Source of the DNA: Tetrahymena thermophila SB210
Taxonomy: Eukaryota; Ciliophora; Oligohymenophorea; Hymenostomatida; Tetrahymenidae
Direction: 5' to 3'
DNA length: 64,000 nt
Assembly (NCBI RefSeq): GCF_000189635.1
Contig: NW_002476188.1
Coordinates: 682,001-746,000, forward strand
The position numbers were made by a program, and so were the translations under genes. Numbering within the stretch: position 1 is the first letter of the stretch; the number at the start of each line of letters is the position of its first letter. Below the pieces are notes generated by a model. The model saw nothing but the letters and a program-made list of their open reading frames with translations, did not search any database and was not told where the DNA came from. This document shows, one piece after another, positions 1 to 64,000 of this stretch.

Positions 1-3000
1 TCATTAGAATTAAGAATAAACTACTTTAAAGCAGCTTAAATACCAATATGAAAAATAGCTTCTCCTTATTTATTGTTTTCGTTTAATAACCTTAGAGATT
101 TCTTATTAAAAGTGTCTTATAATTAGCACGAGCTTTCATTAAAAGCAGATTAATTTTTAATAAAATTATAATTTTATTAAACCTAATCTTAATTATTTTT
201 ATTATTTTCTTAAGATATATTTAAATTATTTTTTGTTTACTTAGAGAATATATATTATGAATTTGTAAGACTGTGATTAAAGGCCGGAGATTGACAAATT
301 AAACTTTCATGGCTGAAGATTTAATTATAATCATTATTTTATATAGAATTTTCATTACTAGGGCTCTCTAAAGAGATGTTAAATTAAAATTGATTCTTAA
401 AAGAATTTGAGCCACCTAATATGCTATGCTTAACTATTCTTGGAGATTCTAAGATTTTTGAGAATTTTTAAAAAACTTAAGAATATTTTGACTAATTTTT
501 ATTATGTAACTAATTAATTCTGTTGCTAAAATTATTTTTTAGGTTTTAATTATGTTAATCAGAATTATTTGAGTTAATAATTTCAATATTTTAGTCTAAT
601 TTTTTATTATTAGAATCGTGTCTTAACTAGGAATTATTTGGACTGAAATAAAAACTATTTATCGAAGAAGTTTTTTGTGGTAATTTTATGCTCTCAGGTT
701 ATATTTTACTAACTTTTTCAATTATTAATCCTTAAGATTTATATATTTCCTCGTCAATTTATTTAACCTATAGCCTGTTATTTTCATCTGATTACTTTGT
801 CTCCTCTTATAAATCTCTCTATTTAGAAATTAAACATAATTCTACTTAACTATTAATTTATTCTTATAAAGTGTTTCTCTATAAAAATTATCTATTTTGA
901 TCTAAATCAATTTGATCATTCAACTCTATTTTCTTACTATATTCTTGTTGAAATTTTGATTTACTTTTTTAAAATGTTTCTTACTCTGATGATTATTTTA
1001 ATTTAATTTATTTTTTTATTAATTTAGAAAAAAGTTTTTAATTAGACTTTAAAATTTGAATTTTTGTGAACTAAATTTGTTAAATGAATTATTGATCGTC
1101 AAAAGAATAGCTTGATAAACAAAATTAATCTTTATCTTTGAACAAGATATCATTAATTAAATCACTTTAGACTGCATATGATCTAAGCTGTGAATAAGTG
1201 CTTTAGCAAGCAGATAATAAGCACACATTGATATTAGAGTTAGGTAAAGTCTGTGCTTTTCTTAAGATTTCAGATAATTGTGGATTAGGGATCTTGCTAA
1301 TTTTGAATATCTAAGCGAGGGTATTTAATGCTTGCATTCTTAAATGAGGAAGATAATAAATGCTATTTTCAAAATAATTTGTTAGAATTTAACATGCTAA
1401 GTAGTAATTTTATAACTTAATTTAAAAATTCGCTTATTCAAGTGCATAAAATGAAAAGAAAATATCTGAACTATATTAATAACTACAAAGCTTTTCTTAG
1501 GATTTAAACTTTCTCACTTAGAAGTACGGAATATATTTCTAAATATTTTCCTTTCCATTTTTTTAAACGTATTTATTCCCTTAATTATTATTATCATCAG
1601 GCATTTCTTATTTGTTAGTATATAATCTTTTGTACATTTATTATTACTTCTTATTAGATTTTTTGCTTTTTTATATTTTTAATTTCAGCAAAAAAAACTA
1701 TTTTTGAAACTAGCTTCTCCACTTCTTCCTTAGAGTATTTAGCTTGTCTCTTTAAATAGGTGACATTAATATATTAAAGGTGCTATTCTAGTAAACAAAA
1801 CTTTTATAACCCATTTATTGATCACTCTTTATTTAATAATTTGTAAGCAATGATTAATTATTCTATGAAAAAATAGAATTTTTTTTATGAGACTCAGGCT
1901 TTATAAAACTGCATTAACTTTTTTTCTACTCAAATTTTTATGTATAAAGGCTAATTAAGTTTTCCAGTATGTTAAAAGATTCCCCATAATTATTTTACAT
2001 TTTGAATGAAACTAGCTTTATGTAATAATTTACCATATCTCTCTTTGCAGAAGGTGGGAGATGTTGATTGCTAACTTAAATTAACTATTTGATACATCCA
2101 TAAAAATCTTCAGCTAAGTTAAAGCATTTATGTTGGTATATATATGATCCTAATGCCTTTATTTGATTCTACATTCTATTGTATAAGCTCCAGTAAAGTT
2201 ATTACTTTTCTTAATCAATTAATAATTTACTATGATTAGATCTTTCTCCGAAATCTCTTTGAGATTTATATTTATTTTGAATTCCTTCAGCTTGCTGAAA
2301 TTGGAAAAATCTCTACTCTGTTTTTTCACAATAACTAAATGTGTAATTAGATTTGTAGCTGTTATCGTGACTATAAAAATCTAATTCATACTTTGCATAG
2401 ATTATTGACTTTTAAAAGTTCTCTATTGATTCTAAAAATCTTCCAGAATTGTAATGAATAACACCAATATTGTTAAAGCAGACTCCAAGTGCACGATTAT
2501 TCTTAAATTATTCAAAGTGTTAAATTTCTAGACAAAGATTAATTAAGTTTAAACTAGGATCTTCCTTAAATGTATTTTTTGTTGTGAATCTTAATAATTT
2601 AAAAAGGTTTTGAAGGCTACTAAAAAGTTCTAATATCTCATAAGAAAGTGAGTTTGCTTTGATGTAATTTTGAATAGACTCATCGATTTACAGCTTATCA
2701 CCATTTAATTGATTTTTTTCTCTATCACCAAAACTATTTACAAATCTTTCAGACCTGTAATATTTGTTAGAGATTTTATCTTATTTGTCATTTTGCATAT
2801 TTTCATCAAAGGCTTGGTTTAGAATATCTGTTAAGTGAGTAATAGGATCAATAATGCTTTTTAAAAAATTTTTACAATACAAAAATTGTAGGATTAAAAT
2901 AATTAAAACTGCTATTAAGCTTACGATTAAAAAAATAATATTGCATTTATTTATTGTATTATTTAAACTATCAGAAAAAGCAACCATTTTTTCATTAGAG

Positions 3001-4558
3001 ACAATATCAATTAACATAAAGATATTCTTTATTTGATATTTAGCAGAAGAATTTGTTAATTATTCAGAATGATAAAAGCTAGGCATTTTGTCAACCAATG
3101 TAATAAGATTTTAAATCACATAACAATCAGAGTTATTTATACTGTAATGAAATTAATACTACTCGTTTTCCCTATTGAATCCAATAATATTGATTTTGTT
3201 TAGATTTTCAACAATAAATTATTAATTATTTTAAATTTATTTTAAGAAATTAAAATCTGAACTTCCATCTTGCAAATATTTTATCTCAAAATCTTGTAAA
3301 GTTGGTAGTTGAGACATTTTTATTTGTTTAAGTAATGAATTATAAATAACCGATTGATATTCAGAACTTAAAAGAATTTAAAGTTTAGAATTTTAGCCAT
3401 AGTTATTAAAATATAAATTAGTTAGGTCTAAGTCTAATCTTAAGCATAAGATAGAACCTTTTTCATTTCTTGAATAAATACTTGAAGAGTTAAAAATGAA
3501 ACTCCTTTAACAAAATGTTTAAGTTACTTGTTGAGAATTATTTAATGCAAATACCTCTGGAGAAAAAGCAACTAAAGAGCTATTTCCAGTAATCTAGCTA
3601 AAATTGTAAATACATCTTAAGTCTGGAGGAAAATAACCTTAGTATTAACAATTAGGCTAAATTTTTTAATTGTAAAGAGTAATATTTTAGTTTGTGCTAT
3701 AAATTAAACCATCATAATCAAATTCTAAATACATTTCTTTAAATTTCAAAGGTCTTTATGAATATTAATATTTGTTTTCGTACTGTAGAGGTTTCCAAAG
3801 AGAATCAACAAGAAATGAATTATCAACATTCTATAATTCTATTTGATCCAAATCAATTATGTGCGATTTATTTATTTGATGCCTAAAAAATATATTAATT
3901 AGTTCAAATATAAATAAATAGCTTTGAAAAATTAAATCAACTTTTAGCATAACAAAAAATATATTAAAAAAGCTAATTAAATTAATGTTTATAAATGCTT
4001 AAGTTAAAATTTTCTTAAATGAAATCCAATTCAGCTTTAATTTTAGTTTTTAAATTAACTTTTTAAAAAAATAATCCAACAAAATAAATATTTTTATTAC
4101 CATGCACTTGTATAGATAGAATTTTTTTAAAACAGTTGCATAATAGTTGGGTCTTCTTTATTGAGATTTGCTCTATCTATATTATAAATAGCTGGTATGT
4201 GATTATAGTTTTTGATTACCTTGCCTTATAGTATTTTTCTAAAATACTAATTTGTTTGATATATTTACCAGCTCATTTTTTAGATTTGAGAACTAATTTA
4301 AAATACTACTGCCGAATTAAACAGCTTTGAATTTTCTAATTAGTCTTAAAGCAAATTTGAAGACATATTTGATATTATTTAAAAAGATAGATATTTGATA
4401 TAAACGAATCCAAACGATATCTACAATATTAAAACAATAACTGGTAATATTATAATTAGCAACATAAATATGTACGTTTTATCAGTTAAATAAGCATTAG
4501 TTTTGGAATTCTCTTACTTTTAAGAAGGTAATTTATCTTCTATAGAAATTCTTTTCAT
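1..4558 (-). CDS. dCache-TPR-VWA receptor paralogue 1 (C-terminus beyond window start)
   Basis: This gene reads only with TAA/TAG as Gln. Exon 1 is 4101-4558 (ATG at 4556-4558) and the intron is 3883-4100 (218 bp, GT..AG). Exon 2 runs from 3882 down past base 1, so the 3' end is missing. The N-terminal tail MKRISIEDK is followed by membrane helix 1 at about residues 28-52. The extracellular region has the family Cys motif in divergent form (CxYxGYFPPDLRC). Membrane helix 2 lies near residues 463-487 (plus 2880-2950) and is followed by PITHLTDIL, resembling the start of a HAMP linker. A TPR-type motif (NNIGVIHYNSGRF) lies near residue 620. The first half of the VWA-like domain is near residues 1040-1100, with SDLINDILFKDKD. 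This is the most divergent member of the array. It is separated from the next paralogue by the RING-YEATS gene. The gene call is firm; ligand and function are unknown. Confidence 0.85.
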
Positions 4559-7532: not shown

Positions 7533-10500
7533 TCAAAAGTGCTCAAGGACCATAGGCATTAAATAATTTTTGAGATGCTCTCTGTTATTGTAGATATATT
7601 ATAGTAATTTTTCTTCTGTATTGAAAAAACCTATAACTTATATACCATCAATTGATATATTTTCTAATTTACTGCTTTCATCTTGTTATTGAGTATCATT
7701 TAAAATCAAAATTAATAACTCAGTATCTAAATTGAATAGAAGCTATGTTAGTTTATCCATTAAATTTCTATTTTTGATTTGAAAATATTAATCAGTTACA
7801 TAGATCAAATAGTTTTGTATGGTTTTTTAGGACACATATTTTTTTTTGCTTTAATTTAAATATTTATTTTAAGAGAGATAAATATTTAATTTTTTATCTG
7901 AATTTAATATGAATTGTTTGAGAGACACGTGAATTCCTAAATGAAATAAATATTCACTTGATTTTGTTTTTATATTTTTATTTTCATCATTAATTTGCTA
8001 ATTATTTCTTTATTCATCAGTGAATAATATATCATTTAAATTAAATAAAGTTAGTTTATCTTAGTGGACTTATATTTGAGTGTTTTGGTTTGAATGATTA
8101 GATTGATTTAAGTTTTAATCACTGTGAAATTCTTTTAGTTTAAATTAAAAATCATTTTCAATTAAGGAATAGGGCTAATTTTAACTTGTTGGAAAAAGAA
8201 ACAAATTATTTTAACTAGTTTAATTTGCTAACCTGTTTTATACATTTTGGAAAGGTATTTCTTTTTAACTTTAGCTGTTAGATTTAGATTAAAGTTTACT
8301 AGTTTCTGATTTTGAAGAAGTACCAATTTTGTCATTGTTGCTGGTTTCTTCATCGTTCTCTAAAATTTAGTTAATTTCATATTATAATTTCTTATGATTT
8401 TTTAAATTAGGTGAGCTTATCTTAGTACTGCTTTTGTTTAAAATTTTCTATTCTTAAAGTGAAGCTTTTTACTTTTAAAAATCTTCGAAATATGATTTTT
8501 TTAGGCTTTTGTTTCCATAATCATTTTAGCTTTAATTACTTTCAAATCCATTTGAAGATTATTAAGAGTTAGATATATCTTTATAACTTTAAATTTTTTT
8601 ACAATCTAAGCATTTGTTTGATGAAAAATGCAAAATATTGGTAGAATCGTCAATTTATTCATCATGTATAATTTTATTATTTATTTTGTCTTTATCATTC
8701 AAAATCAAACTTAATGATTATTCCTATACTTATTTATTATTTAAACTGTTTATATGACATAAAGTTTTATAATTTTCTAGATCTTTGATACTAGTTTAAT
8801 TGATTTATACAACCTTCTTTTTATCCTATTTATGCTAATCAGAGTCTAATCTGAATGTTTCAATTTAAGAATCTTAAGAAGACTCTAAAGAATGTTAGAA
8901 TATTTAAATTTGTTCCAAAAAGTAATTTTTTAAGGAATTTAGTTTTTGGCTTGCAAGTTAAATATTCAGAGTTTCATGCCCTTTTAATTCTTTGTGAGGT
9001 TTACTATTTAATACTTTTTTGCTCAGTTAAGGACTTTCAAGTTTACTAAAAGAATCTATTTTAAGATGATGAGTTAAATTTATAAGTGAATGGAAATTCA
9101 TATCCTAAGAAAAATATTTGTCTTAGCTGATAGTTGGAAGATTATGAAAATTGTTACTGTGGTCGTGAGTGCTTTTTAACTAATTCTAAATTTAATTATT
9201 CAATATTTTATGGGCATTATACTGTGGATTATTAAGTAATAAAGAGAGGAAAATTTATTCGAAGAGCCGTGGATTTGACTATATTAATTTTATTGAAGTA
9301 GTAGCTATTTATTGCATAAATATTTGCTCTTTGAAATTGTATTATATCATTCCAAAACAGTCATCATCTTTAAAGAGAATTTCATTAATAAGATCATTAC
9401 ACATAGCAAATAATTTTAATTTGTTGGATTGCTTTTAGCAAACAGATATAACAGAAATATTAAAATTATAATCTGTCATTTAATTATACCTTTTACTTTT
9501 TACTTCAAGATCTTAACTTTTTATCTTTTATTTTTGAAATATTTCTAATAATAAATCCAATATTAATTTTTTTAAATGAGGAAGATACTATTGACATTAC
9601 TCTAAGGAATTAGTTAACATCAAAGCTGCACTATAGAAATTTTATTATTTTACTTAGAACTAAGCCTATTCTAGTGAGCAATATTGAAAGTAAATGTCTG
9701 AACTATACTCATAGTTTCTAACCTGTTCGTTATTTTTATGCTTTCTAACATGATAGAAAATTACATTTTTAATTTTTTGGTTTTCATTTGCTGTATCTCT
9801 TCTTTTTGCAAAAAATTTAGCATGCTTATTTGATTTCTAGCTAGTTGTCTTTTAAATTTCTAAGTTTATATTTTGCATACTGCTATTTTGTAATATTGAT
9901 TTTCTAGGTTTTTAACTAATATTCTAAGGGATTTCTAGATGTTGAGAATGAGTTAGCTATTATTTGAATTAGATTTATTTGCAATTATTTTATTTTGTTG
10001 TTTTTTCTTCGGATTTATTTTTAACATCAGACTACAAAATGAGTGGACTTAAACTTGATCTAATATTTACTCCAGATCTAATAGGACTAAAAATATTTTA
10101 TTCATTTAAAATCAATTTATTATCACTTTCTTAATTTATTTTATATGATTATTTAATATCTTCTGTTGGTTTGTTATTGCTATATTAGAAAAAAATAGAA
10201 TTTTATTGCTTCTGTTAATTATTTTTTTAATCTAACCTTTTTTCTTATTTGTTTGGAGTATTCAAATGAATGGCTTGATGTAAACTATTATTAATTTAAC
10301 TTATGTATTGCATGTTAATTAGGCTCTAAATTTTATATTTTATTTTATTTTATACACTTTCATTTTAGTGATTTGTTTTTATTTTTTAGATTGGAGATAG
10401 TAAGATAACAGAGTCAGTAATATGATTGTTGTTATTGCAGTTATTTACAAGTATTTTATTCGAATTAATTAAATAATCTTGGAATGTATTTTATTCTTAT

Positions 10501-13309
10501 TTCTTTGGAGTATCAAAATCATTCTTATAGAAATAATTAGGACACTCTTGAAATAATCTACCATATTTAGCTTCATAAACGTTTATGTAAAGCTAGCTTA
10601 GCTTGTTAAGGACTATTGATTCTTTGCTAGAATTTTAGTTAAGCACACCTTTTGACAAAGCATAGTAATTAATAATTTCTCTTTTGTATGAAGGAGGTAA
10701 ATAAATCTAACTAATACTTAGGTTTTCTAATGCTTGATCCTCTAGAATATCCCACAAATAAGATTTGCTTGTTTGTATGAACATGAGCATGGCTTTAAAT
10801 AAATTCGTTTTCCTATTATACAAGCTCCAGTATAGTTCGACTTGCTAATTCTAAATATATTAATTTTTATTACTTTTGCTATTTGATTTATCTTAAATGT
10901 TATTAGATATTTTAAGATGATTTGTGGAGGTGGTCAAATCTTTAGAAGATGCATTATTTTATAAAGAACTTCTTAAATGTAAAGTAAATCGCTTAATGCT
11001 ATAGGAAAATTAAGCTCCTTCGCCTTGGTGGGAGTATAAATTTAATTCGTAATTGGCATAGATAACAGCTTTTTGAAAATTTTCTAAAGCTTCCTAAAAT
11101 CTTCCACAATTATAATGGATTACTCCCATATTATTGTAGCAAACTCCCAAAGCTCTATAGTTACCGAACTATTAGAAATGTTGAATCTATTTAATAAGAT
11201 TTAAAAGTTGTGTGCTAGCATCTTCTTTGTAAAAATTTTAAGTGGTAAATCTGAGCATCTTAAATAAATCTTAAAAGCTATTTAAGAGGTCTTGAGTATC
11301 TCTGGAATGACAAACTCCTTCAAAATTAGCATCAATTTACTCATCGATGAGAATTTAGTTATCTTGGTCAGTTGAAATTTCACTAAACATACTTTACGAC
11401 ACATGTAATGAATTAGCTACCTTATCAATCGGGGTTTCTTTTGCATTTTAACTCTATTTTGAATTTAATACTTTAATTTATTTTAGTATTTAAGTAAGAT
11501 GGATTACAGGATTGAGAATATACCTTCCCATTTTTATAGAGTAATAAAATTAAATTCCTAAAATAATAAAAATTAATCCCCAGCTTGTATAAGTAAATAT
11601 GTTATTATAAGTGTAAATAGTATTTTGTAAATTATTAGAGTAAATCTACAAATTTTCTTTAGACAAGACATCTAAAAATAAGAACACACTTTTTAATTAA
11701 AATTTATCAGCTGGATTTTCTCGCCTAAGAGTTTCTACCCTTGGTACTTTATCAACCATTGAGATAATGTTTAACAAAACAAAACAATCAGTACCGTTTC
11801 TGTTATACTCAAATACTTTCTAGCTGGTATCTAACTAATAATTAAACTAATAATTACTTGAATTCATCATTATAAAATTTGAGCTTTCAGTTAAATTTCC
11901 AAGAAATATTTTAGCTTGGGATTTATCTTAGAGATAGTCCGTTTCCACCTACATTATAGTATTTGAAGTCAGAAAAGACTAGTTTTTTGTTTAAGAATTA
12001 TAGACTAGTGAAAAAGTTTGTGGATCTATAAGCATTTGAAATTTAGAATTTTATCCAAAATTTTAAAAATAAACGGGGATAACTTAAAGATTAAGAGTGA
12101 TACACAATATTGAAAAGATATCATTTTCTTATTTGGAGCTCAAATCAACTCTCCTTTAACAAAAATTGCTAGAATAATAAGGGCCATTTGAACCAAAATT
12201 TAGAGAAGGAGCAAAAACCTAGGTAGAAATATTACTTACAGTTGGTTGATAATAATATCTACATCTCAAATCTAATTTATAAGGTCCTTAATAAGGACAA
12301 TCCTTAGATGGTACGTAAGTAGCATAAGTTGTGTTGTTGCTTGTCATATATATCAAGCCATCATTTACTAGTCCTAAATAAATTGATTGTATTTGCATCC
12401 ATCTCGCAATTTCATGCTAATTATCATATTTAATTGCTTTCCAGATTGTGTCCAAGGATGTTGATTGCTTAAGCTAATACAATTCTGTTTAATCTAGCTA
12501 TTCTAAATAACCTTTAGCTACTTAATGCCTATAATTAAAAATATTTTGAATGTTTAGTAGATAGATTTAACAATATATTTAAATATATTTTAAGTATTCA
12601 GCATATGTAACAAAATAACTTAATATATTTTGAGTATTTAGCAATTAGAAATTAAGTAGATTTTTCTATTTTAATTAATTTATTTAGTGGCATAAAATTA
12701 AAAAGAATATTTATTTTATTTTTAGACTCTAGAGCTTGTAAAAACATGTAAGCTTAGCTAAAATAAAACTAATTCCTATCCCATAAAATAAAAATAAAAT
12801 CAAATATTTTAATCATAAGCAGCTAAACAAAAAATAATTTACCAAACACTAGTAAGAAGTGAGTTTTATTAAAACATCTTTAAGACAGTAGGGTTCTCCT
12901 AATTTAAATAGGTTCTATCAACATTATGAATAGCTGGTATATAATTATTATTATTCGTGACTTAATGTAGCAATTATTTCCCTAAAAACTCATTCAACAT
13001 GTTCAATTACCACGAAATCTTCTATACCTGCTAGTTTATCTAAAATAAAACTGCATAATTTTATAATTTTGAGTTACTAATCTGATCTTGATACATTTGA
13101 TCAGCAAATTATTATATAATTTTTATACCTTCTTTCTCCATATAACTAAGGCTGATAAAAGTAGAGACAATCAAAATGATAGAAGGTAGTAGTCCAATAA
13201 AAATAATAGTTATCTGAGTTTAATTTTTTTAAAAAAATCCATAATTTTTGGATAGACATTTATTATTATTATCATCTGTTGTTGTATATTATGCTTTATC
13301 TTAATTCAT
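7533..13309 (-). CDS. dCache-TPR-VWA receptor paralogue 2
   Basis: Exon 1 is 12843-13309 (ATG 13307-13309), the intron is 12529-12842 (314 bp) and exon 2 is 7533-12528, ending at TGA 7533-7535. Both exon lengths fit the frame exactly, giving 1820 residues. The tail MNQDKAQYTTTDDNNN leads to membrane helix 1 (about 33-57, with LLPSIIL). The intron splits the Trp codon of SVW|HQV. The extracellular domain carries YDGLIYxTS-type and CPYxGPYKLDLRCRYYYQPT motifs plus NGTDCFVLLNI. This is the pattern of a Cys-stabilised double-Cache sensor. Membrane helix 2 is near 463-485 and is followed by PVIHLTQILKQI. The TPR core NNMGVIHYNCGRFQEALENF lies near 610-635. The VWA-like front half (ISVCQKQS, then NDLINEILFKDDD) is near 1175-1240. 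The back half (YLIYVTDQ to MVLEHF) is near 1730-1820. The linker between the two halves, about 485 residues, is low-complexity. Confidence 0.88.
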
Positions 13310-14743: not shown

Positions 14744-17700
14744 TCAAAAATGCTCTACAACCATTGGCGAGAAATTATTTTTGATATGTTCTCTATTATT
14801 ATAGATGTATTGTAATAGTTTTTCTTCAGAATAAAAAAAAGTAATTATTTATCTTCCTTTTTCATGAATATTTTGCAAACCTGAATGCTCTTCTAAATTT
14901 TATGTTTCATTTAAAACTAATACAAGTAGCTCAATATCCAAATCAATCAGTAGTTTACACAACCTTTAGAATTTATTTCTATCAATAAAATTCAGATTTT
15001 GATCTGTGTAGTATATTAGATAAGTATAATAGTTTTTACAAAGATAAGACTATTACAAACAATTTTGGTTGTATTTACTTTAAGTTACAAATATAGTTTA
15101 CTTTTCACTTGAATCCAAAATAAATTATTGTATGCAAGTCTATACTCCTTACAAAAAGACCTATTCGCCAGTTAAGCGCTTTGCAGTGTTTTAACATTAT
15201 ACTTGAGTTGTATTTTTATCTTAGCTACTTTCTCTTTTTTATATGGGTAATTCACTATTGTTAATGCTTTTAGCTCTTTAATACTTATTATGAATATTGT
15301 ATTCGTTTTAGTTCTTTATTTATAAAAATGATTTTTAATTTGAATTCAACATCGGGCTTTCGTGTAAAGCATTGAAATAAACTTCTTACTCAGTATCACC
15401 AATTAATTCTAGTTGATTTTTAGCTGCTTAAAAAATATATTATGCTTTGTTGTTATCATTAACAACATTAATTTAGGATAAAGATGTCTGTAATGTTTCA
15501 TTTTACATATTATTACATCCATTTTGTGTGATTTAACTATTTAATCGTTTTTTTTAATTATTCTCAAGTTATTATTAATTATAATTATAGCTACTAATAT
15601 TAGTATTATTATTGCTATTGTCTTACTACACTTCACTACTTTCGTAAATAGGTAAAGTAAAAACAGAATCAAAAGAATATTCAGTAAATTAAGTCTGTTT
15701 CAGAACATTTGAGGTTTCGTTGTATGATTAAATATTATTGTTTATGAATTTTTTGCTGGTTAAAGAAAACTTTTTTTTATAAGGAGTTTCTAAAAAAAAG
15801 CTATCTAACTTGAAATTTTAATTAGAATCTTAATTTTAATTAAAATTATTATTCTTTAGAAAATGTCTTGAGTTTTATTTGTCATAAGAATAAAAATTAT
15901 GTTTTGAAAATACTTAATGATTACTAGTTTGGTTTTCTATAATGTTATATTTGTTTAAAGGAGATACAGTTGCTTGTTTGCTTTTGAACTGCTTCGTTTA
16001 TCCAGTATTACTTCTTAAATTAAATTTTTCTGGTTAATTTTTAGCTTTTTTTAAAAGTAGTCCCATAAAAATCTCAGAAAAAAATGAAATGTTGGACTAG
16101 ATAGTTTTTATTGAAGTTTTACTTAAAAATTGACTATATATATTCTCTTCAAATGAATAGAGTAAAATTCCAAACGAATCACTTTGTTTAAATAGGACGT
16201 GATTTACAAAGTCATTGCACAAGGCGTAGAACCTTTTTTTGAAATAACGATTGTAACAGGTGGATATTATATAAACATTGAAGCTGCTATCCTTTTATTG
16301 ATTATATTTATTAATTTTATCATCTAATTCTGTACTTTAGATATTATTTTCTCTGAAAATTTGTGAGAGTAACATCATTTCCATTCTTTTTAAGTAAGGA
16401 AGATAATATTTACATTATTCTAATGAATTAGTGATTATTAAAGCTGCGTTGTAATAATTTTTTTATTGTATTTAATGCTAGGCTTGTTGTATAGTGCAGT
16501 ATTAAAAATAGATATCTGAACAATAATCGAATATGTTTTACTGATTTACTTTTGTCTCTTTTCTAATTTTGTAAAAACCCTCTCTACTCTACTACTGTAA
16601 TTATTATACAAACTATTACTCTTTTATAAATTCTTATTGTTTTTTATTATGGTCATGTTATGGGTAGTTATCAAAAGATTCTTCCTCAATCAATTAAATA
16701 TTTTTTATTTGTTATTTGCTGTTGTTATTATAATATAATTATTCAACTAAAAATTAGGATTTGTTATTTATTGACATTTAACTTTATCTATTTATTAAAG
16801 TGTCATCCTTTTTCTCAATATGTAAATCCTTTTCTATTTTAAATTTTTAAAAAGAATAACGGTTGTTTGTTTATTGATCATTTATTTGCACTTCTTAAAT
16901 GCTCATTAAATTTTTATCTTCATCGTCTTTTTATTTTTTAATTTAATGCGATTTAAATATTTTATCAGATTGGACTTTTTCACAAGTATTTACTTTATTA
17001 ATTTCAATTTCTTATTTAAAAATTTAATTTTTTTAAGAACTATGAGAGTTGAACAACAGAGTCCTATTGTAAGTTGTTTTTGATCTTAAATTGAAATCTA
17101 AATTAATGTGATTTTAGAATTTTAAAGAAAGCTATCTTTACCTTCTTTTTGCTCCATTTATGCTGAATCTTTATATTGGAGATAAAAGAATTAATGACTC
17201 ATTGTTGTTATTGCTACTTACTAAAATCTTATTTTACTAAACTAGGTAATCTTTTAACATCGTTCCATTTTAAATTTTTGCCTGAGAAATATGAGAAAAT
17301 GATTAAAATAATTCAGGTTTTTTAGATTTTTTTGCTTCATAAATATTGATATAATTCTATGTTAAAATATTTAAAATAAAATTAGTTTGATTATGTGTTT
17401 TGCTTTAAAATCTACCCTTTAAAAGATTATAATAATTAATAATTTCTCTTTTGTAAGAAGCAGGCAAGTAGAGTAGACTGACAACTATATTTTCTAATAC
17501 AATATCTTCGAAAACATCCCAGAGATTGAATTCACTTTATTTAATGTAAAAAGATAATGCGCTTTGGTAGTTTAAACTTCGGTTAAATAAATTCCAAAAA
17601 AGCTGTTCTGTTTCTTAACTCATCTAATTATTAAAATTATAAAATTTAGTCTCTTCTAAAAATTCATTTAGAACCATTTAATTTTCATTTTTATTAAATT

Positions 17701-20334: not shown

Positions 20335-20358
20335 AAACTATTTTTTTTAAAATAGTTT
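20335..20358. repeat. short perfect hairpin, duplicated at 28562-28585
   Basis: The arm AAACTATTTT pairs perfectly with AAAATAGTTT across four T. The copy at 28562-28585 has nearly the same sequence, with one A/T shift in the stem. Its preservation may reflect only the recent segmental duplication. It lies far (about 460 bp) from the stop codon of paralogue 4 and is not an obvious terminator. Confidence 0.6.
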
Positions 20359-40900: not shown

Positions 40901-41144
40901 GATTTATTTAAAATACAATTGCTTAGTTTTAGAGATAAGAGCTGTTGATTTAATCTTAATATAACTCTTCTGCAAACTCATAAATAATTTAATTGTTAAT
41001 AAAATAGTAAAACCACAGGCTAATAAAGGTAGTTACAACAAGGATTAGAGTTGGAAAGATAATTATGGTTGATATAACTAGTTAAATTTGATTTTATTTT
41101 AGTAGTTATTTTATAAAACTCAACTTATTCAGTTTCTTTTTCAT
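34969..41144 (-). CDS. dCache-TPR-VWA receptor paralogue 6 (longest member)
   Basis: Exon 1 is 40711-41144 (ATG 41142-41144), the intron 40541-40710 (170 bp) and exon 2 34969-40540 (TGA 34969-34971), giving 2001 residues. The short tail MKKKLNKLSFIKQ precedes membrane helix 1 (about 23-44, STIIIFPTLILVV). The Cache motif is CPYDGIYKLDIRCRFYYSET, with the usual QPT replaced by SET. Membrane helix 2 is near 468 and the TPR core near 600. A second TPR-like hairpin (QYYAIQLAKYQL, NPYQAALILTNLLEQ) lies just before the VWA front half (LISVCHSKFYKKR, SHDLVNEVLFKEED, near 1150-1190). The VWA back half (FLIYFTDQYF, LLILAVNE, NREH to VEFF) starts near 1900. The intervening linker of about 680 residues is the longest here and is rich in N, S, K and Q. 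Its C-terminal DNA is duplicated in the pseudogene at 27252. Confidence 0.88.
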
Positions 41145-49467: not shown

Positions 49468-52400
49468 TCAAAAATATTCAATCATCATTGGAAGAAAGTA
49501 ATTTTTAACATGCTCTCTGCAATTATATATGTATTGAAGCATTGTTTGTTCATCTTTAAAAAACAAAATAATTTATTTTCCTTTTATAAAAATATCTTAA
49601 AGATCAGAAAATTCTTCTAAAGATTAAGAATGATTCTTCGAAAGAACTAGAAGTTAGATATCCAAATTATTTAACAATAAACATAATTCCTTCAATAAAT
49701 TTTTATTTTTAAATTGTAACTCATTATCAGTTGCATAGATGATAAATTTTTGTATGGTCTTTGGTAATTTGAACTATTTTGTTTTTATTTAACTTTTAAA
49801 TGCATTCAACTCAAGATAATAATTGATTTTATTTTTTGTGTTTAATATAAATTACTTCAAAGCTGCTTGTATACCCTAATGAAATATAAATTCAGCACCA
49901 TATTTATCAATTTTATTATTGTAAAATTACATTCTTTGTTATTTTTCATTTAAATTATTTTTAATTTAATCATTCTAATTTTTCTAAAAATCAGCTTTCT
50001 AACCATTTTTACTTTTTTATATCTATAATTGCTGTTAAAATTAACTATCCTATTTCTCTAAAATATATGCTTATACATTATCAAAAAGTTAATAATGAGA
50101 ATTCTTCTCCTTAAACCTATTCTTTAGATACCGTTTGATATGATTTTATTTTGAGCAGTTGATAAGCTCAATGTTAATTTTAGATTTATTATATTTGTTA
50201 AAATTAAACTTATTTTTAAACTACCTTGTACAATAATTCATACTAATTTATTCTAAACTATGTATATCATCTGAAAAATTATTACTTAATAGATTAGTAG
50301 GTGAGTTTGTATTTTAGCTTTAAATTCCAAAATCATAATTTGAAAATTTTTATACATTTTTCGTATCACAAAAATTAATATTATTCTCTTGAATTTTTGA
50401 GTTTTCTTATAAATTCTATTGTTTTATAGAGCTCTTGAGATTATCTAGAGTATACTATTGTGACTCAAAATTCGAATTTTCATTTGTATATTCTTATCTA
50501 TTATCAAATAAGCTTTGGTTCTAATAATTTGTGTTTATTTTTTGCTACTTTACTTAAACTTGTCCATATTTTTAATTAATCTAAAATATATTATTTTAAG
50601 TAAATGGTATATTTTTATTTGCTTAAGATGAGGTATTTTAAATTATGTTTTATTAAGTTTAATTCGCTTGTTTGTAAAGCTATTCAAAAATTTTATCTAC
50701 TAGTTAAATATTAGATTGAAGTGTTTTTAATTTTATCTAGGAAATAACTTACTCATAAATATGGTCTTTATACTGATAATTTATTAATCCAAACACATCC
50801 TCCTACTTATGAAGTATATAATTATATAAATCACTGCAAATTTAATATATTTTTTTCTTATTTCTTTTTTTCTAACATGCTGAAATTACATATACATGAT
50901 AATTACACTCTGGCATCTATTCATAAGATGTCTTCATTTCTTCTAAGAATTCGTCTTTTATGTTGCACTAGCTAAATATCCTATGTAGCATATTTAGAGC
51001 TTGCAACTTTAAATGAGGTAAATAGTATTTACATTTTTCAAAGCAGTTTGTTAAGATAGTAGCTGCTGTATATTAATTATTAATTTTAATTTAATATTAG
51101 GCTTGGCTTAGAGCGTAATACTAAAAATAAATATCTGAATTAAATTCATAATCTTCGGATTATTAATTTTTTTTTTTAGTTTTTTTAAGCTTGTAAAAAG
51201 TAATGTTAGTTTATTTATCTTATTTGTTGGTTCTGATTATTCTTGTTTTTTAACTATTTAATGGGTATTAACTAGTATATCTTCTACTATATTCCATTGA
51301 ATATTAATTTTAGCACAAGTTTATAAATTTTTAATGAAACTTTTCTTACTTTCCCTTTTCTAAATTATCCTAAATATTTTCTTCTCTTTATAATTTGCTT
51401 CTGTGCTCTAATTACTTTTTAAATATGGAGTTCACTTTAGGTCTCATATAATACGTATCTATGTTTTAGCTGCTTTACTCTAAATTTAATTAATTTTTAT
51501 CATTGGAGTTTTTCTTTTTACTTTCATATTGAACTGTATCTACTGAGTTATTTTATGTTTCAAAAAAATTTTCTTTTATTTGAAGTGGATCTTTTTATTT
51601 TTCTTGGTTTATTAACTCCTAAAGCAAAAAAGACTCATCTTTATCTTATTTCTGGGAATTATTTGAAAAACTTTATCCCTTTTTGCTTCTTATTGAGTTA
51701 GGGTTTTATTTTTTACTTTCTCTAATAGGTGATATCAATAGTTAACCTACATAACACTCTTTATTTTAATAGAAAATTTCGTTCATAATTTAGAATTGAC
51801 ATTATTCTTATTTTTTATTTTTTTAGTGCTCATTTATTTCAAATTTATTAGTATATAAATCGCTAAGTATATTCAAAGTATCTTTAGCCCTTGACAATTC
51901 ATTAGTAAAGTAAAAACTCTTTAACATTACGTAATGAGTTAGCATTTCTCTTTCTTTTGATTAACCTAAAAAATTCTTAGTCAATTGCAACAACTCTGAA
52001 CCCTTTTCTTAGAAAATATCCCACATACCTGGGTTGTCTATCAAAAAATGAAATAAAGCTTTGACTAAATTTAATTTTCTGTTATACAAGTTCTAGTAGA
52101 GCTACTCAATTTCCTTTAAACTGTAAGTATCTTCACCTTCTTATTAAAAATTTAAATATTCCAAATATGTGTCCTATTTGTTTTAATCTTTTATGTTTTA
52201 ATTTTCAGATTTGTGTTTATTACTGCTGTCATATTTTGGATTATTGTGGGAATAAACATTTAATTCGTAGTTTGCATATATAATTGATTTTTAAAAATTT
52301 TTTATAGACTCCTAGTACCTTTGATTATTGTAATGTATTACTCCTATATTATTAAAGCAAACTCCCAAAGAACTATAATTCTTTATACTTTCAAAGTGCT

Positions 52401-54447
52401 TAACTTATCTATTTAATTTTAACAGCTTGGCGCTTTCATCTTAGTTAAAAAAATGTTTATTTATTGATTGTAAAATTTAAAACATATTTTAAAAGATGAA
52501 TAGTAACTCTTAAGTATCTTGAGAAAAGCAAACACCTTCAAAATCCTAATCAACATCAAAACTGATTTAAATTTAATTAAAACTATCATTATCTGAATAA
52601 TATGATGATTTTGATTTATCAGTAGTTAGACAGGGCGAATCTAAATTTTAAGTGAATTATTTTTTTTTTTAAACTGACTTTTTATCTTTTTAACTCACAA
52701 TCTAAATTTATTTAAGAACATTTGTCAAATGAGCTATTGGATATAAAATTTGGTAACCTAAAATTATAGAATAATAGAGCTTAAAGCCAATTAATATAAT
52801 TAGAAGAGATAAAGAACAATAAATTTGCACATGATTTAAATTTTCAATAGAATCTGTTAGATTTTAAGAATATTGAGTCATTTTTTATTTAGATATCAAA
52901 TCGAGATAGATAAACACGCCTTTGAGTTAGAACTTCTTAGAAGGATTAATTTTCTTAAGTGTCTCTCCTTTTGGTACTTTATCGATTACTGTGATGAGAT
53001 TTTGTGAAACAAAGCATTCTGTTCCGTTTCTGTTGTATTAGAAGTCATTTTATATAGATTTTGGGCTTAAGTTTAGCTCTTTTATAGAGTCTTAGCTATC
53101 TAAAACAAATTAAGACATTTATTTTATATTTTCTAAAAAGTTTTGCCCATCAATTTTATTTTATAAAAAGTCTATCTCAGTTTAATACAAAGTATTTAAT
53201 CCTACACTGGTTATTTTTTATTAAGAATCATATACAATAGTGAGTTTTCTAGGGTCTAAGACAATTTTTGCAACTGAATTTGAGGCAAAATTAAGAAAAT
53301 AATTTGAAACTTAAGAAATATCTAAAGTGATACAGAGCAACGAATATATCTAGCCATCATCGCTTAGGTTTGTGTTTTAATACTTTAATCTTCTTTGACA
53401 AAAGATACTTCCTAAATAAGGTGTTACATTATTGTAAATAATTTAAGGATCAAAAATAGCAATAGATATATTGTTCATAGTTGGCTGATAGTAGAATCTA
53501 CAACGCACATCAAATCTGAATTATCCTGTGTATGGACACCCTGAAGGTATTTCATAGCTATTATAGGTTATGTTTTTACCTGTCAAATAGAATAACCCAC
53601 CTTAGTCATACCCTATCTGAATATCATCTATTTTTAGATACCTTTGATTTTAATTGTCATTTTCATATTTTATTGCTTTCCAAATAGAATCTTATCTCAC
53701 AGCATAATCCATTTATTAAATTTAAATTTAATTAAGATCTTTCAAATATGTTTCATTTACTTAATGCCTTTTTTTTAAAAATTTTCTAAGTTAAAAAAAA
53801 ATTATTTTTTTATCTTTCTAATTAAAAATTGTTACTACTTTAAAAATCTATCATTATTGATTCAAAGAAAATTAAAAAATAAATGGTTCAATTTTCTTAA
53901 TTTATTTTAAATTTAAAATTTTTTTATTGAAAAATGAAGCTGATAGAATTTATCTTGCCAAAATATCAGTAAAGTTAAATTTTATTTACCAAGAGCTAAC
54001 GTATATATCATTTTTCTAAAATAAGTTCATGATTAAAGGATTTTCATCGTTATTATAAGCTCTATCGATATTTAGAATAGTAGGAATATGATTACTGTTT
54101 TTTTTGACTTTATTCTAAATTAAATTTCCTTAAAATTCATTTAAAAGATTAATTTGCCATACTAATTTCTACATTTAAAAGTTAAGCTAAAAAACGATTC
54201 CAGTATTTAAGATTTAAGATGCTTAAATCTGATCTTCAAAAAGTTTTTCAGCAAACTCATCTATTAGGTGTTAAGTAATTAATTGCGATATTTTTATACT
54301 TAAAAATGTAATAATCATGCAAAATACAGTGGGAAGCAGCATCAAAGCTATTATTGTTAAATGTGTTTTATTAGAATTGGCAAAATTAATTGCTCTTTAA
54401 ATTAAAGCAACTATTTTTTCTAAATATTTATTTTATTTCAGAGGCAT
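49468..54447 (-). CDS. dCache-TPR-VWA receptor paralogue 8 (shortest complete member)
   Basis: Exon 1 is 53990-54447 (ATG 54445-54447), the intron 53768-53989 (222 bp) and exon 2 49468-53767 (TGA 49468-49470), giving 1585 residues. MPLKQNKYLEKIVALIQ precedes membrane helix 1 (about 30-52, IIALMLLPTVFCMI). Exon 1 ends SSW rather than SVW, but the intron is in the same codon. The Cache motif is CVHTGQFRFDVRCRFYYQPT-like, with the family CPY diverged. Membrane helix 2 is near 478 and the TPR core near 630. The VWA-like front half (VISACQKKRNKKK, CSDLYNYILHKQEDVFGLINY) is near 1115-1150. The back half starts near 1495 and ends NREH to IEYF. In this member the LFK motif of the family is LHK. Its partner from duplication B is the truncated paralogue 10. 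Confidence 0.86.
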
Positions 54448-56215: not shown

Positions 56216-56388
56216 TTTTATTAAAAATAAATGAATTCCTTTTAATTTTTTATGAAAAATTAATTTTTTTGGGCACTTTTTTTTGGGCAAAAAAGATACT
56301 TAGTGAATGCCTTAATTAATGAGCATTTACAGTATATAACTAATAAATTTAATAGATTTTATAGCTTGCTAATTATTATATTTAATTT

Positions 56389-59300
56389 TCAAAAATATTC
56401 TATCATCATTGGCATAAGATTATTTTTAATATGCTCTCTTTGATTGTAAATATATTGGAGTAGCTTTTATTAACTGTTAAAAAATTTGATAATATTTTTT
56501 CCAGAAATTATTATATCTTGAAGTTTGTCATGCTCATAAGTTTATTGTTGCTAATTTAACACTAAAACTAACAATTAAATATCTAGATTAAGCAAAAGCT
56601 GGCTCAACTCATTTATAAATTCACCATTTTTAAATTACAGTTGCAGATCTGTGATATAAATTAAAATTGTCTAGTTTTATTTTTAAAGCTAAAATTGTTT
56701 ATTTTTTTAGCTCTCTTTATATTTTTTCAAAGAAAGATAAATATTTATTTTTTCTTTAGTACACAAAATGAATTATTTTAGAGCTGCATGTATTCCTAGG
56801 TGGAATATTTCCTCTGAGCTTTAATTAACCTTTTTGCTGTTAAACTATTACTAATTTTATTTGGCTTAATGGTAAAAATCATTTTCATCTTTAACTTAAT
56901 TTTCTTGTTTGCCATTATTATTTTAATTAGTGTCTTAGTTTTCTGATTAAAATTAATTATTAATTAAATAATTGTATTAATTTTATTAAAAATAATTTTT
57001 TTAATTTTTCGTTTAAATGTATGGGCTAATAAAATTATTTTAATTAGATTTAGGCCATTTAATACCATTAAATTTATTTGAATATGTTTCATTAAATATA
57101 TTAAGATTTGTTTTTGAAGAATGCTATTTTAAGCTTGTATTTTACTTGCTTAATTAATCAAAATCTAAATATTCTTCCCCATTTGGTTAATCATTTTTGA
57201 AGATATCTTTCTATGCATTTGAGGACTAATAATCTAAATGAAAAGGTTAATTAAGAATTTATGTACGATTTCTAAAACGATCACTTTCGCCACTATTTAT
57301 TAGTTTACAAGGAGATGACTCAAAGCATTATTATTAAAAAAATTTTTATTGGCTTTCAATTTTATCAAACATTATTGGTGATTCTTCTCCAATATTAAAT
57401 TCTTAAAAATTCTTTTTTTTACCTATTTGGTTAAATGAATTTTAAATATTTTAGTTGAAATAATAAATTTAATTTTTTTTATTTTCTGTTTGAAAGAAGG
57501 TCTAATAAAAATAATTATTTAGTTTTTCTTCTTTACTTAACTCATTTTCTAATGGCCTTTACTTGATTGACAATGTTTTATTATTCCTGTTAGTATTTTC
57601 ATTTATATCTAATGAGCAATTAAGCAAATTATATTTAGGTCCTTGATTTAAAAAATAATCTTCTAAATATTACTTCGTGTATTACTTATAATAAGAGCCA
57701 CTTTTATCTAATTTATTCTTTATATCTTCTTCTTAAATTCCTGTGTTATTATTTATTTAATATTATAACCCTAAATTTCTGTTATGAGAATCATTCTAAA
57801 TGTATTTTTGAGTATAAGATATGAGCAATAGCTCGAGTAAATGTGGATAGGATTTTATGACCTGAATATATATTTAAGCCATAAACTGTTCAAATATACT
57901 TTCAGAAAAAGAATAACTTATTAATCCGAAAGAATCTTAATCTTTAAACAGAATATCTTTGAGCAGGTCTGAACTTATTTTACAAATTTTTTTGTTTCCC
58001 TTCCATTACTGGCAAGCTGATATAATATAGACATGAAAATTGCAATTTATTAACGACTAATAGGAATTTTTCATTTCTTCTAACTCTTCAGCAAAAATAT
58101 TTTTTCTACAAAATATATCAGATAAAATGTTTAAAGCCTACTCCTTCAAGTGAGGTAAATAGTATTTACAAGATTCTAAGGAATTAGTTAAAATTGTTGC
58201 AGCTTTAGAAAAATTTTAGCTTTACACTAAAAACTAAGCCTAATTCAATGCGTAATACATAAAATTTACATCTGAGCTAAATTCATATTTAGAAACTTTA
58301 TCTGAATTTTTGCATTTCCTAACTTTGTAAAAAGATAAAAACTTCTTATTTGTGTTAGAGAGAATATGTAGTTGTATGAAATTTTAAAAGTTTGATTTCC
58401 TTGGATTTTTTTGATTTTCTTTTTAGATTATCAGTGTGGCTTTTTTATTATTTCTTTCACTTAGTTAACTATGCTACTAATTTGTATTGTATTGTTTTTA
58501 AAAAAATGATTATTTTGTTGCTTTCTTATTTGGATCATTTTAGTAAATTTATTATTTTTTTACTTTAAAATTAGCTTCTTGATTTTAAAGGATTGAGACA
58601 GGTATATTTTTTTATGTTTGCTTTGCTTGCTGTTTTTAAGTTTAGTGATACTGAGCACTATCAAAAACTCCTTCAGCTAGACTTGATAATCGCTTTTAAT
58701 TACTATAGCTGTAAATTTATTCCTTTTCTAACACCTCTTTAAATTTTAATATTTACTTTTTTACTGTAGACTTCTTAATAGGAGACATTAAAACTTATGA
58801 AGCATTAATTTCACTAACTTAATTACTGTATTCAGATAACTTTTTTTAGAGAAATAATGAATCTTGAGTATTCTAGATTAACAAATTATTTTGAAGAGCT
58901 AACATTTTATTTGCAAAGTTTGAGATTGTTTTAGGTTTTTCTGAATTTATTTCATTTTAGTTATTTTTTTTTTCATAGTTTTTTATATATAATATACTTA
59001 TTTTTTTTAATATATCCTTAGCATTTTCCATGTCTTTAGATTTGAAGCATGAAATTAATATTGGATAGTAATTAAACATTTCTCTTTTAAAAGAGGGAGG
59101 AAGAAACATTTTACTAATTATAGCATTTTCTTTAGCAAGCTCATAGTAAATATCCCATAAACCAGAATTATAATTTAAATAGTTTGATAGGGATTTAAGT
59201 AAATTTTCTTTTCTATTAAATAGATTCCAGTAGAGTTATTCATTTTCAACTATATCTTCAAATTAGAATTGAATTTATTCTTTTTCATCGATCTGATTAT

Positions 59301-61797
59301 ATTTATCAAAACTTAATTTCAAAATTTTATTTTTTTGTTCGCTATTGTCATCTAAGAAATTATTTTTATTTTTGTTTTCAAGGATATTCATATTAAAAAT
59401 TGAAGCGAACCTCTTTATTTACTAAGAAAGTTCTTCTTTTACATTTTATTGGTTATAGACATTTAGCTCGTATTTAGCAAATATAACAGCTTTTTGAAAA
59501 TTTTCTACAGATTCTTAATATCTACCGCTGTTGTAATGAATTACTCCTATATTATTATAACACACTCCTAATGCTCTATAATTACAAAATTTTTCAAAGT
59601 ACTGAACTTGCATATTAAGATTCAATAGAGAAGTACTCTCATTTTATTTAAGTATATTTGAGTTAGTAAATTTTAAAATTTTAAGCATATTTTAGAAGCT
59701 GTTTAACAACTCCTACGTATCTCTAGAAAAGCAAATATTATCAAAATCTAAATTTATGTTAAATTCAAATTGTATTTAATCTTCAAAACTCAATATTGAA
59801 GCATTTTAATAATAGGTGTCTTTTTAGCTCTTAAAATTTGTATTTAGTGTTTGATATCCAGTATGCAAGGAATCTTTGATTAAATTATTACTCTATTACT
59901 AAATGCTTTGGTTTTTAATTTTGATTTACTTTAATATATTTGTTAAGTGAATAATAGGATGAATTAATAATCGCCCTAGGATTATTGAAAAGTAAATCTA
60001 AAAAATGGTAGCCAATATTATTAAAACCCAACAACAGTAGCTAAATATTTAATTGTAGTATTTTATCTTTATTTGAAGGTCATTAGAATACTAAATCATT
60101 TTCTCTTTCGAGAGAACATCCAAAAAGATAAAAGCGCTTTTGAGCTAAAATTTTTTAAAAGCACTTCCTCTCTTTAATACTTCAAAACTAGGAATCTTGT
60201 CAACCATAGTGATGAGATTTTGAATTACAAAACACTCAGTCCCATTTCTGTTGTATTAGAATGTTCTCTAAATTTACTATGAATCTAACTAAAGCTCATT
60301 TATATTATCTTTCTGGTCTAGAATGTATTGAGACATCATACTTATATTTTCAATTATAATTTTTGACTAGCTTTAATCTTGCAGGTAATATGTTTCTGCT
60401 TATTAAATATTTAAGATTTAATCTCTTTTAATATTTATTATAGAATCGTAAACAACTGTAAGTTTTCTTGGATCCAGAATAATTTAAAATTTAGAGTTTT
60501 ATCCAAAATTTTAAAAATATTTAGGAGTTTAAGTTAAATCTAAAGTTATGCATAGCATAGAATATTTTTCTGCCTCTGAGTTTGGATCTTAGCTAAAATA
60601 CCTCAATCTCCTCTGGCAAAAAATACTTGCTAAATAAGGTTAAGCACTAGCATAAAAAACTTAAGGATCAAAAAGAACTGTAGATATATCGTCCATAGTT
60701 GGTTTATAATAAAACCTACATCTGATATCAAAATTATAAGTACCATAATAAGGGCAATTCGGAGGAATAGGGTAATCTATATATGTTGTATTTATACTTG
60801 TCTTATAAGTCATACCATCATAATTATGTGCCACCAAAATGTCTTAGATTTATAACCACATATTATTCTAATTTTAATTATCAAACTTAATTGCTTTCCA
60901 AATAGAATCTAATCTATAACCATAATACAGTTGTTAAATCTATCTTTCATCTAATTACTCTAAATAGCTAAAATTTACATGGTGCCTGTAAATTTAAAAA
61001 TATTAACTTTAAAAGTGAACTATTTCCTTATCATATTATATGATGTGCTATTTTAATTTATTTTTAAATTTTACTGAAATTTTTTTAATTTAATTTTTAA
61101 AATAATTTATATCGAATAAAATTTATATTTTGTTTATTTATGTTTTTGAGAGTTATCTTAATTCTATTAATAAAAATTGACAATAAATATAGAAATAAAC
61201 TTTAAATATTCATCAAATGTTGCTTTATAGTAAGTTGATTAATTAGATTACAAAGTAGCTTAAATAAAATTGATAAAATGCTTTAATTCATGAGAGAAAA
61301 ATATTTTAGATTGAGCTTATGTAAATAAATTAAAATTACCAGACACTAGTCAATATTGGATTTTTCAAAAACATATTTAATACAGTCTTGTTTTCTTACA
61401 TATAAAAGGATCTATCTATATTATGAATTGCAGGAATATGTTTCTAGTTTTTAATTACTATATCAAGTAGATTTTTGCCTTAAAATTCATTAAGCAAGTT
61501 TATCTGCCAAAGAATTTTTTAAATTTATGAGTTTAGTTAGAAAACTACAGCTAAATTTTATTGCTTGGAACTATTTATTTAGTCTTGAAAGAGCTATTCA
61601 GCAAAACCATTTATTAGATCCACGCTTACATTCTAAAAAAACTAAATGTTTGTAAAAGTAGCGAAGGTTATTACTAAAGTAGGAAATAGGGTTATAAATA
61701 CTATAAAAATTTAAGTTAAATTGTTGCTTATGTGCGCTTTTAAATAATTCGATATTCTATAAAACTTATTTTATTTTTTTTAATTTACTTCATCCAT
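56389..61797 (-). CDS. dCache-TPR-VWA receptor paralogue 9 (duplicate of paralogue 7)
   Basis: Exon 1 is 61340-61797 (ATG 61795-61797), the intron 60986-61339 (354 bp, about 220 shorter than in paralogue 7) and exon 2 56389-60985 (TGA 56389-56391), giving 1684 residues. Exon 1 is the same length as in paralogue 7. The Cache motif reads CPYYGTYNFDIRCRFYYKPT, so only the variable positions changed. Membrane helix 2 is near 474 and the TPR core near 633. The VWA-like front half (IISACQQWKGNKK, SSDLLKDILFKD) is near 1140-1155 and the back half starts near 1598. Length changes relative to paralogue 7 are concentrated in the linker between the VWA halves and between about 59330 and 59380 (extra residues before the TPR partner helices). 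All keep the frame. Confidence 0.88.
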
Positions 61798-62841: not shown

Positions 62842-64000
62842 TCAAAAATATTCAATCATCATTGGAAGAAATTAATTTTTAACATGTTCTCTTTAATTGT
62901 ATATGTATAGAAGCATTGTTTGCTCTTCTTTAAAAAACAAAATAATTTATTTTTCTTTTATAAAAATATCTTAAAGATCAGAAAATTCTTCTAAAGATTA
63001 AGAATGATTCTTAGTAAGAACTAGAAGTTAGATATCCAAATTGTTTAATAATAAACATAATTCCTTCAATATATTTTTATTTTTAAATTGTAACTCATTA
63101 TCAGTTGCATAGATGATAAATTTTTGTATGGTCTTTGGTAATTTGAACTATTTTGTTTTTATTTAACTTTTAAATGCATTCAACTCAAGATAATAATTCA
63201 TTTTGTTGTCTGTGTTTAAAATAAATTACTTCAAAGCCGCTTGTATACCCTAATGAAATATAAATTCAGCGACATATTTATCAATTTTATTATTTTAACA
63301 TTACATTCTTTGTTATTTTTCATTTATATTATTGTTAAATTAATCATTCTAATAATCTTAAAAATCAGATATCTAATTAATTTTATTTTTTTATATCTAT
63401 AACTGTTGTTCAGATTCGTTATCATATTTGATAAGCTCAATATTAATTTTAGATTTATTATATTTGTTAAAATTAAACTTATTTTTCAACTACTTTGTAC
63501 AATAATTCATGTTAATTTATTCTAAACTCTGCATATCATCTGAAAAATGGCTATTTAATAGATTAGTATGTGATTTTATATTTTAGCTTTAAAAACCAAA
63601 ATATTAATTTGGAAATTTCTATTTACTTTTAGTATCACAAAAATGATTATTATTCTCTAGAATTTTTGAGTTTTCATATAAATTCAATTGTTTCATAGAG
63701 GTCTTTAGATTATCTAGAGTATATTATTGTGACTCAAAATTAGAATTTTCAATTGTATTATCTTATCTATTATCAAATAAGCTTTGGTTCTATTAATTTG
63801 TGTTTATTTTTTGCTACTTTACTTAAAATTATTCATATTTTTAATTCATCTAAAACATATTATCTTAAGTAAATGGTATATTTTTATTTGCTTATGATGA
63901 GGAATATTAAATTGAGTTTTTTTATGTTTAATTTGTTTGCTTGTAAAGCTATTCAAACATTTTATCTACTAGCTAAACATTAGATTGAAGAGTTTTTAAT
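62842..64000 (-). CDS. dCache-TPR-VWA receptor paralogue 10 (C-terminal part only)
   Basis: TGA lies at 62842-62844 and the frame runs off the window end, so only about 386 codons are visible. They cover the VWA-like back half (NREH, MMIEYF ending; TD-containing strand near 63110) and most of the Q/N/S-rich linker. The sequence follows paralogue 8 closely. It lacks roughly 100 bp of linker present at about 50040-50155, the gap falling near 63412-63432. The window stops just short of the VWA front half. Architecture upstream is inferred from paralogue 8. Confidence 0.8.

Follow-up and report, generated by a model that had tools for sequence, protein, structure and literature searches.

The stretch of DNA analysed here (the window: 64,000 nucleotides, C308:682001-746000 in the 101-Mb, 445-contig assembly of the ciliate Tetrahymena thermophila SB210) carries part of a tandem array of large, related genes encoding proteins with two hydrophobic helices, referred to below as the receptor-like family. 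The ciliate code 6, in which TAA and TAG specify glutamine, was used for all reading. A telomerase reverse transcriptase exon of this assembly agrees with PDB chain 2r4g_A, a T. thermophila protein, at 101 of 102 aligned residues. The window has a GC content of 19-24% per 4 kb and contains, under this code, nine open frames of 1,460-1,906 amino acids, every one of them on the minus strand; on the plus strand of the window no code 6 frame is longer than 446 amino acids, and under the standard code no open frame reaches 150 amino acids anywhere in it. The longest frame has 1,906 amino acids, whereas first-order Markov simulation of the window, repeated 100 times, gives 485 on average and never more than 686. 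The minus strand thus carries nine large co-oriented genes, A to I, together with the 3' end of a tenth (J) and an incomplete eleventh copy, in agreement with the original prediction of at least ten co-oriented members. Genes, introns included, occupy 77% of the window, and the array extends past it on both sides. A first exon, separate from the long frame, encodes the first membrane helix in all nine models, and is joined to the main exon across a GT...AG phase-2 intron of 114-575 nucleotides that interrupts the same tryptophan codon in every case (exon 1 ends in TG, exon 2 starts with G). After splicing, the main exons range from about 1,290 codons (A, truncated) to about 1,860 (F), and 53 of the 372 columns in the alignment of the nine are invariant. 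Family membership is secure because the phase-2 intron, the helices and the alignment are all shared, and the single architecture predicted for the members is borne out by the same exon-intron plan and both helices in nine of nine models.

From the lower coordinates upwards, and always on the minus strand, the array opens with gene A (3..4558; exon 1 4101-4558, intron 3883-4100, exon 2 3-3882), whose 3' end is cut at the window edge, which has a possible alternative upstream ATG at 4657, and which is the most diverged of A to I, with 32-36% identity to the others from helix 1 to the HLT motif that follows helix 2. Gene B (7533..13309; exon 1 12843-13309, intron 12529-12842, exon 2 7533-12528) encodes 1820 amino acids and gene C (14744..19861; exon 1 19404-19861, intron 19290-19403, exon 2 14744-19289) 1667. 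Gene D (20821..25966; exon 1 25503-25966, intron 25163-25502, exon 2 20821-25162) has a possible upstream ATG at 26185 and is followed by gene E (28986..34105; exon 1 33642-34105, intron 33310-33641, exon 2 28986-33309; 1595 amino acids) and gene F (34969..41144; exon 1 40711-41144, intron 40541-40710, exon 2 34969-40540; possible upstream ATG at 41225). Then come gene G (42684..48427; exon 1 47970-48427, intron 47395-47969, exon 2 42684-47394; 1722 amino acids), gene H (49468..54447; exon 1 53990-54447, intron 53768-53989, exon 2 49468-53767; possible upstream ATG at 54522) and gene I (56389..61797; exon 1 61340-61797, intron 60986-61339, exon 2 56389-60985; 1684 amino acids). Gene J (62842..64000) is represented by its last 385 codons only, the remainder lying outside the window, to about C308:750205. 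The eleventh copy, in the gap between D and E (27186..28440), joins a C-like exon 1 piece and a C-like interior piece adjoining an F-like 3' end and is an internally deleted chimera. Intergenic stretches were compared with the receptor-like family only, and may hold small unrelated genes. Between A and B lies a 667-amino-acid code 6 open frame (5312-7315); it may be intergenic, and BLASTP at E 1e-2 does not relate it to the family.

A genome search with gene C as the single query gave 46 matches, grouped into at least 28 loci, a lower bound because 31 of 130 candidates were scored: 15 on contig C308 (13 in the window's array and two outlying), three on C51, seven on C31 (five plus two) and three on C91. 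Both exon 1 and exon 2 were found at 26 of the 28 loci, the check having covered these 26, that is, all except the outlying C308:446198 and C308:509801; the copy at C308:679k is without part of the ectodomain (the region between the two helices). The two outlying relatives (C308:446198-447796 and C308:508940-510565), 29-42% identical and far from the array, are possibly distant founders. No relative was confirmed among 30 pattern matches in viral contigs or 46 in genome contigs. In a tree of 26 ectodomains, B is joined by the five-gene cluster of C31 (100/100), C by the C51 trio (93/89) and C308:679k by the C91 trio (91/90), while D/E, G/I and H/J form pairs (100/100 each); the tree leaves six of its 23 inner branches open, and long branches lead to A, C308:670k and C308:758k. 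Identity from helix 1 to HLT reaches 95% for D/E, 87% for G/I and 89% for H/J, and at the DNA level a 6.4-kb D/E unit is duplicated (90.5%) and the G-H block is duplicated as I-J (pieces of 85-90%). These duplications and the chimeric D-E gap copy look like marks of unequal exchange, the process by which copies of the array may arise.

The proteins share one linear order. They begin with a short N-terminus and helix 1, from which some 400 conserved residues lead to helix 2. A proline-HLT helix start, a linker and a first TPR part come next, followed by an insert of 130-270 residues (21-28% Q+N), a second TPR part of 96-97 residues, and a C-terminal domain in two parts (80 residues, and 141-146 where complete) separated by a second insert of 219-609 residues (26-35% Q+N), longest in gene F at 609; about 1,090-1,530 residues follow helix 2, with the TPRs and the conserved C-terminal domain among them. 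Membrane helices were called by a 19-residue hydropathy scan at a threshold of 1.5, rather than by a dedicated membrane-helix predictor. In nine of nine proteins the scan found helix 1, peaking at 2.13-3.04, and helix 2, peaking at 1.5-3.26 with the lowest value in B; each protein therefore has a region between two helices. Both helices also appear in the structural model of gene C, so that the predicted pair of membrane helices stands. Against a strictly two-pass layout speak weaker extra hydrophobic segments in six of the nine (A-F; peaks up to 1.91), for instance near residues 292-315 of B, C and E; we read such segments as buried strands. The ectodomain, called Cys-rich in the original prediction, is so only in the sense of five conserved cysteines (present in 25/26, 25/26, 26/26, 26/26 and 22/25 members); it also carries 5-12 N-x-S/T sequons per member. 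Altogether 52 columns show at least 90% conservation across an alignment of 27 rows, which represent 26 distinct genes (A twice); this count leaves out W151 and H152, introduced when rows of outside members were joined. The motifs first proposed proved too strict for the family as a whole: CPYxGPYxLDxRCRxYY is exact in four of nine (B, C, D and E), the TPR-core motif NNMGVIHYNCGRF in three (B, D and E), and the HLT stretch after helix 2 is present but reads P[VI]xHLTxxL rather than P-x-I-x-HLT.

Which parts of this layout are held by selection can be gauged from the young pairs D/E, G/I and H/J, for which omega (the ratio of nonsynonymous to synonymous change) was obtained by a simple counting method with no significance test. 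For these pairs, in that order, whole-gene omega is 0.30, 0.34 and 0.55; it falls to 0.14, 0.22 and 0.29 in the main-exon ectodomain, to 0.23, 0.13 and 0.41 in the first C-terminal part and to 0.20, 0.12 and 0.18 in the second (only 89 codons of which are covered in H/J), and rises to 0.76, 1.22 and 1.21 in insert 1 and to 0.37, 0.43 and 0.70 in insert 2. The C-terminal region is thus made of two constrained pieces around a looser insert, and, as an anatomical statement, the claim of a two-part domain is supported. The TPR picture is less clear (0.15, 0.28 and 0.55 for part 1; 0.19, 0.77 and 0.58 for part 2). The TPR assignment itself, a core of 34-residue helical hairpin repeats as originally claimed, is confirmed both by Pfam (TPR_1 in gene B, E 4.4e-6; TPR_1 and TPR_2 both over the cut-off in gene F) and by a fold search with a model of gene D. 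A PDB search with the cytosolic profile returned only eight designed proteins, mostly consensus TPRs, at E 0.02 or worse.

The second domain identity proposed for the C-terminal region, VWA, fared differently, and it is slightly less than an even bet that the split domain is instead another alpha/beta (Rossmann-like) or family-specific fold, an alternative compatible with a receptor role. The order of VWA is strand-helix-strand in one part and helix-strand-helix-strand-strand-helix in the next, and the two halves, as we read their predicted strands and helices, would follow this order. The model of gene D (20824..22470, minus strand), which spans the second TPR pair and then the split domain, is alpha/beta in the second half (helix 412-428, strand 457-463, helix 472-484, strand 487-493, strand 514-520, helix 523-532) at block pLDDT (predicted local distance difference test) values mostly of 48-76, which likewise argues against the alternative; the first half is unfolded, which argues for it. 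Several further results weigh against VWA. Pfam gave no VWA match in any of six joined C-terminal domains, and these had no PDB sequence match; a genome search with PF13519 reached 49 places, none at loci of the family; and, when the joined domain was scored against eight genuine VWA domains from this genome, 38 of 60 decoys equalled or outscored it. The Foldseek search with the gene D model was dominated by the helical part, and among the 50 rows shown only one was of VWA type, a chain of the VWA protein collagen VI (E 0.54); the VIA listing, covering model residues 16-97 only, held no VWA or Cache row. The 14-3-3 proteins at the top of the Foldseek rows were treated as noise of a low-confidence model. 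The DxSxS motif of the metal ion-dependent adhesion site (MIDAS) is missing in all nine of A to I, its expected place, which depends on the topology as read here, being held by ISVC, ISAC, ISTC, LSAC or ITAC. Because Pfam, PDB and profile comparisons give nothing, the first half is left unfolded in the model and DxSxS is missing, the name VWA-like is a topological guess, and the claim of a VWA domain could not be upheld. Elsewhere in the genome, VWA_2 matches cluster at C51 229291-237383 (four places) and C79 157208-201378 (five), away from family loci.

The ectodomain poses a similar question, as it had been predicted to be a double Cache (dCache) domain. Several results run against this identification: with HMMER filters on, Pfam found no Cache match at E up to 10 in any of the nine ectodomains; a genome search with PF02743 reached four places, none in the family; and the model of gene C (18191..19861, minus strand; from helix 1 through the ectodomain and helix 2 to the HLT linker, intron included) is poor, with mean pLDDT 40.6 and a predicted template modelling score (pTM) of 0.21. 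This model has 557 residues, 38 of them from the intron, and was built on an alignment of 15 rows, of which 12 were single exons; pLDDT reaches 50 only at 21-68 and 488-554, which correspond to the membrane helices and to the residues following helix 2, and a long helix is drawn at 27-116, above 50 only up to residue 68. In the structural comparison, proposed originally as a check, bacterial dCache-type ligand-binding domains account for 11 of the 50 Foldseek rows shown (4wy9, 7k5n, 6fu4 in three chains, 6f9g and 7prq in two each, 5ltv and 4jgo), but the best stands at E 0.47, no row is significant, and PX domains, which head the list, are more numerous (about 17 of 50, best E 0.065). The PX identity was set aside as noise of a low-confidence model. 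On the other side, a 26-row family profile compared by hhalign in local mode with the genome's own dCache set aligned at positions 196-280 with a score of 22.5 and, taken as a single comparison, an E of 0.063; one of 60 column-shuffled or reversed decoys equalled or beat this score; the best overlap sets DIRCRFYYQPT on ERGWYNNT. The recurrent dCache-type rows and this weak similarity make the Cache reading suggestive, short of proof, and the original claim is not demonstrated. Searching the PDB with the ectodomain profile turned up a single weak match, the adherence protein 6pon (E 0.013), and Pfam scans of the nine ectodomains and six joined C-terminal domains otherwise gave only single-member matches to unrelated families (best E 0.006), which were rejected.

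The genome's dCache set consists of three tandem Cache genes with a following membrane segment on contig C9 at ~93,600-110,300 (dCache_1 E 1e-6 to 3e-6), one of which resembles 3c8c, the sensor domain of a bacterial MCP (E 6e-5), and a more diverged dCache-type gene on C17 at ~995,400 (dCache_1 E 2e-4). They belong to the same genome as the family, have a membrane segment after the Cache region, as the family has helix 2 after its ectodomain, and align weakly with it by profile; they differ in matching dCache_1 (E 1e-6 to 2e-4), and BLASTP of their four frames against the window genes found no match at E 1e-3.

On this evidence, we hold with moderate confidence that the window is the middle of a T. 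thermophila tandem gene family encoding two-pass membrane proteins that act as receptors. The two hydrophobic helices, the TPRs, the linear anatomy and its constraint are supported, and the original interpretation is thus upheld in part; sidedness, sensing, both folds and partner docking are what we infer beyond them. The short N-terminus and long C-terminus would be cytosolic, and the region between the helices therefore outside or luminal. The ectodomain may be a PAS-related sensor of Cache-like type, in which helix 1 runs on into a long first helix; by analogy with bacterial two-pass chemoreceptors, ligand binding outside would shift helix 2 and the proline-HLT linker, and the TPRs and the MIDAS-less VWA-like domain would then dock or recruit partner proteins through a changed docking surface. 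Docking is proposed because no enzyme family (kinase, cyclase or other) was found in the members scanned by Pfam (four proteins) or NCBIfam (three, with no match of any kind). Members differ in the ectodomain, and together would cover several ligands.

It is less probable, and on balance unlikely, that these are two-pass membrane scaffold or trafficking proteins, with a structural or cargo-binding lumenal domain and TPRs assembling complexes at the cortex or vesicles. The TPR is the only domain backed by profile statistics and by fold, there is no known output domain, and ectodomain omega of 0.14-0.29 in young pairs gives no sign of diversifying selection for the ectodomain as a whole, all of which speaks for this alternative; repeated local expansion into separate clusters, with members down to 32% identical, would fit recognition or sensing better. 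Quite improbable is a role in recognition of self and non-self, prey or bacteria through an ectodomain binding macromolecules, like that proposed for Tetrahymena tandem leucine-rich repeat (LRR) families: block duplications, the chimeric copy and the tandem expansion that PMC6564038 reports as common in species-specific Tetrahymena gene families agree with it, but omega of the whole ectodomain is low and both fast-evolving inserts lie on the presumed inner side.

Returning to the receptor interpretation, bacterial two-pass chemoreceptors consist of a helix, a large extracytoplasmic domain, a second helix and a linker helix. The family resembles those of dCache type (Tlp1, TlpQ, McpU, PctC and PctD) in this layout, and in the recurrent though insignificant dCache-type rows, but is without a Cache profile match and carries TPRs and a split alpha/beta domain instead. 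A HAMP-like stretch had been proposed after helix 2; only the proline-HLT helix start may resemble the first helix of HAMP, and Pfam scans of four proteins, with E values up to 1 allowed, returned neither HAMP nor an MCP signalling domain. With alpha2-delta and CACHD1 the family would share the combination of Cache and VWA if both readings hold. In those proteins both domains are extracellular, and the alpha2-delta VWA carries a MIDAS, whereas the C-terminal domain here follows helix 2, is split and lacks DxSxS; no VWA match was found within any of nine ectodomain rows. Tandem LRR families, described in PMC6564038, where TPR is among seven top domains of species-specific Tetrahymena genes, belong to the same genus and are likewise expanding in tandem clusters; the present family differs in its two hydrophobic helices and one conserved intron, and four members scanned by Pfam had no LRR match. 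We regard as doubtful the stronger proposal of an undescribed eukaryotic receptor class, amplified to about 28 genes in one ciliate, that would link a bacterial-chemoreceptor-like dCache sensor across the membrane to a scaffold of TPRs and to a VWA domain that is metal-free and split by an insert, in place of a kinase or cyclase.

The open-licence literature, to which the search was confined, subscription papers lying outside its scope, yielded no description of this family. To our knowledge, few ciliate chemoreceptors are known. Published work deals with G-protein-coupled receptors (PMC3226668; PMC9960496) and with one chemorepellent receptor (PMC5497023). Cache domains are described as less abundant in eukaryotes, with animals (alpha2-delta), plants and fungi named, and the words ciliate, Tetrahymena, Paramecium and protist are absent from the main text of that account (PMC4822843). 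Some 28 large two-pass proteins in a genetically tractable model would offer ready candidates for the means by which ciliates sense food, repellents or each other and, if the ectodomain is indeed Cache, a largely prokaryotic sensor type would have expanded in a eukaryote beyond animals, plants and fungi.

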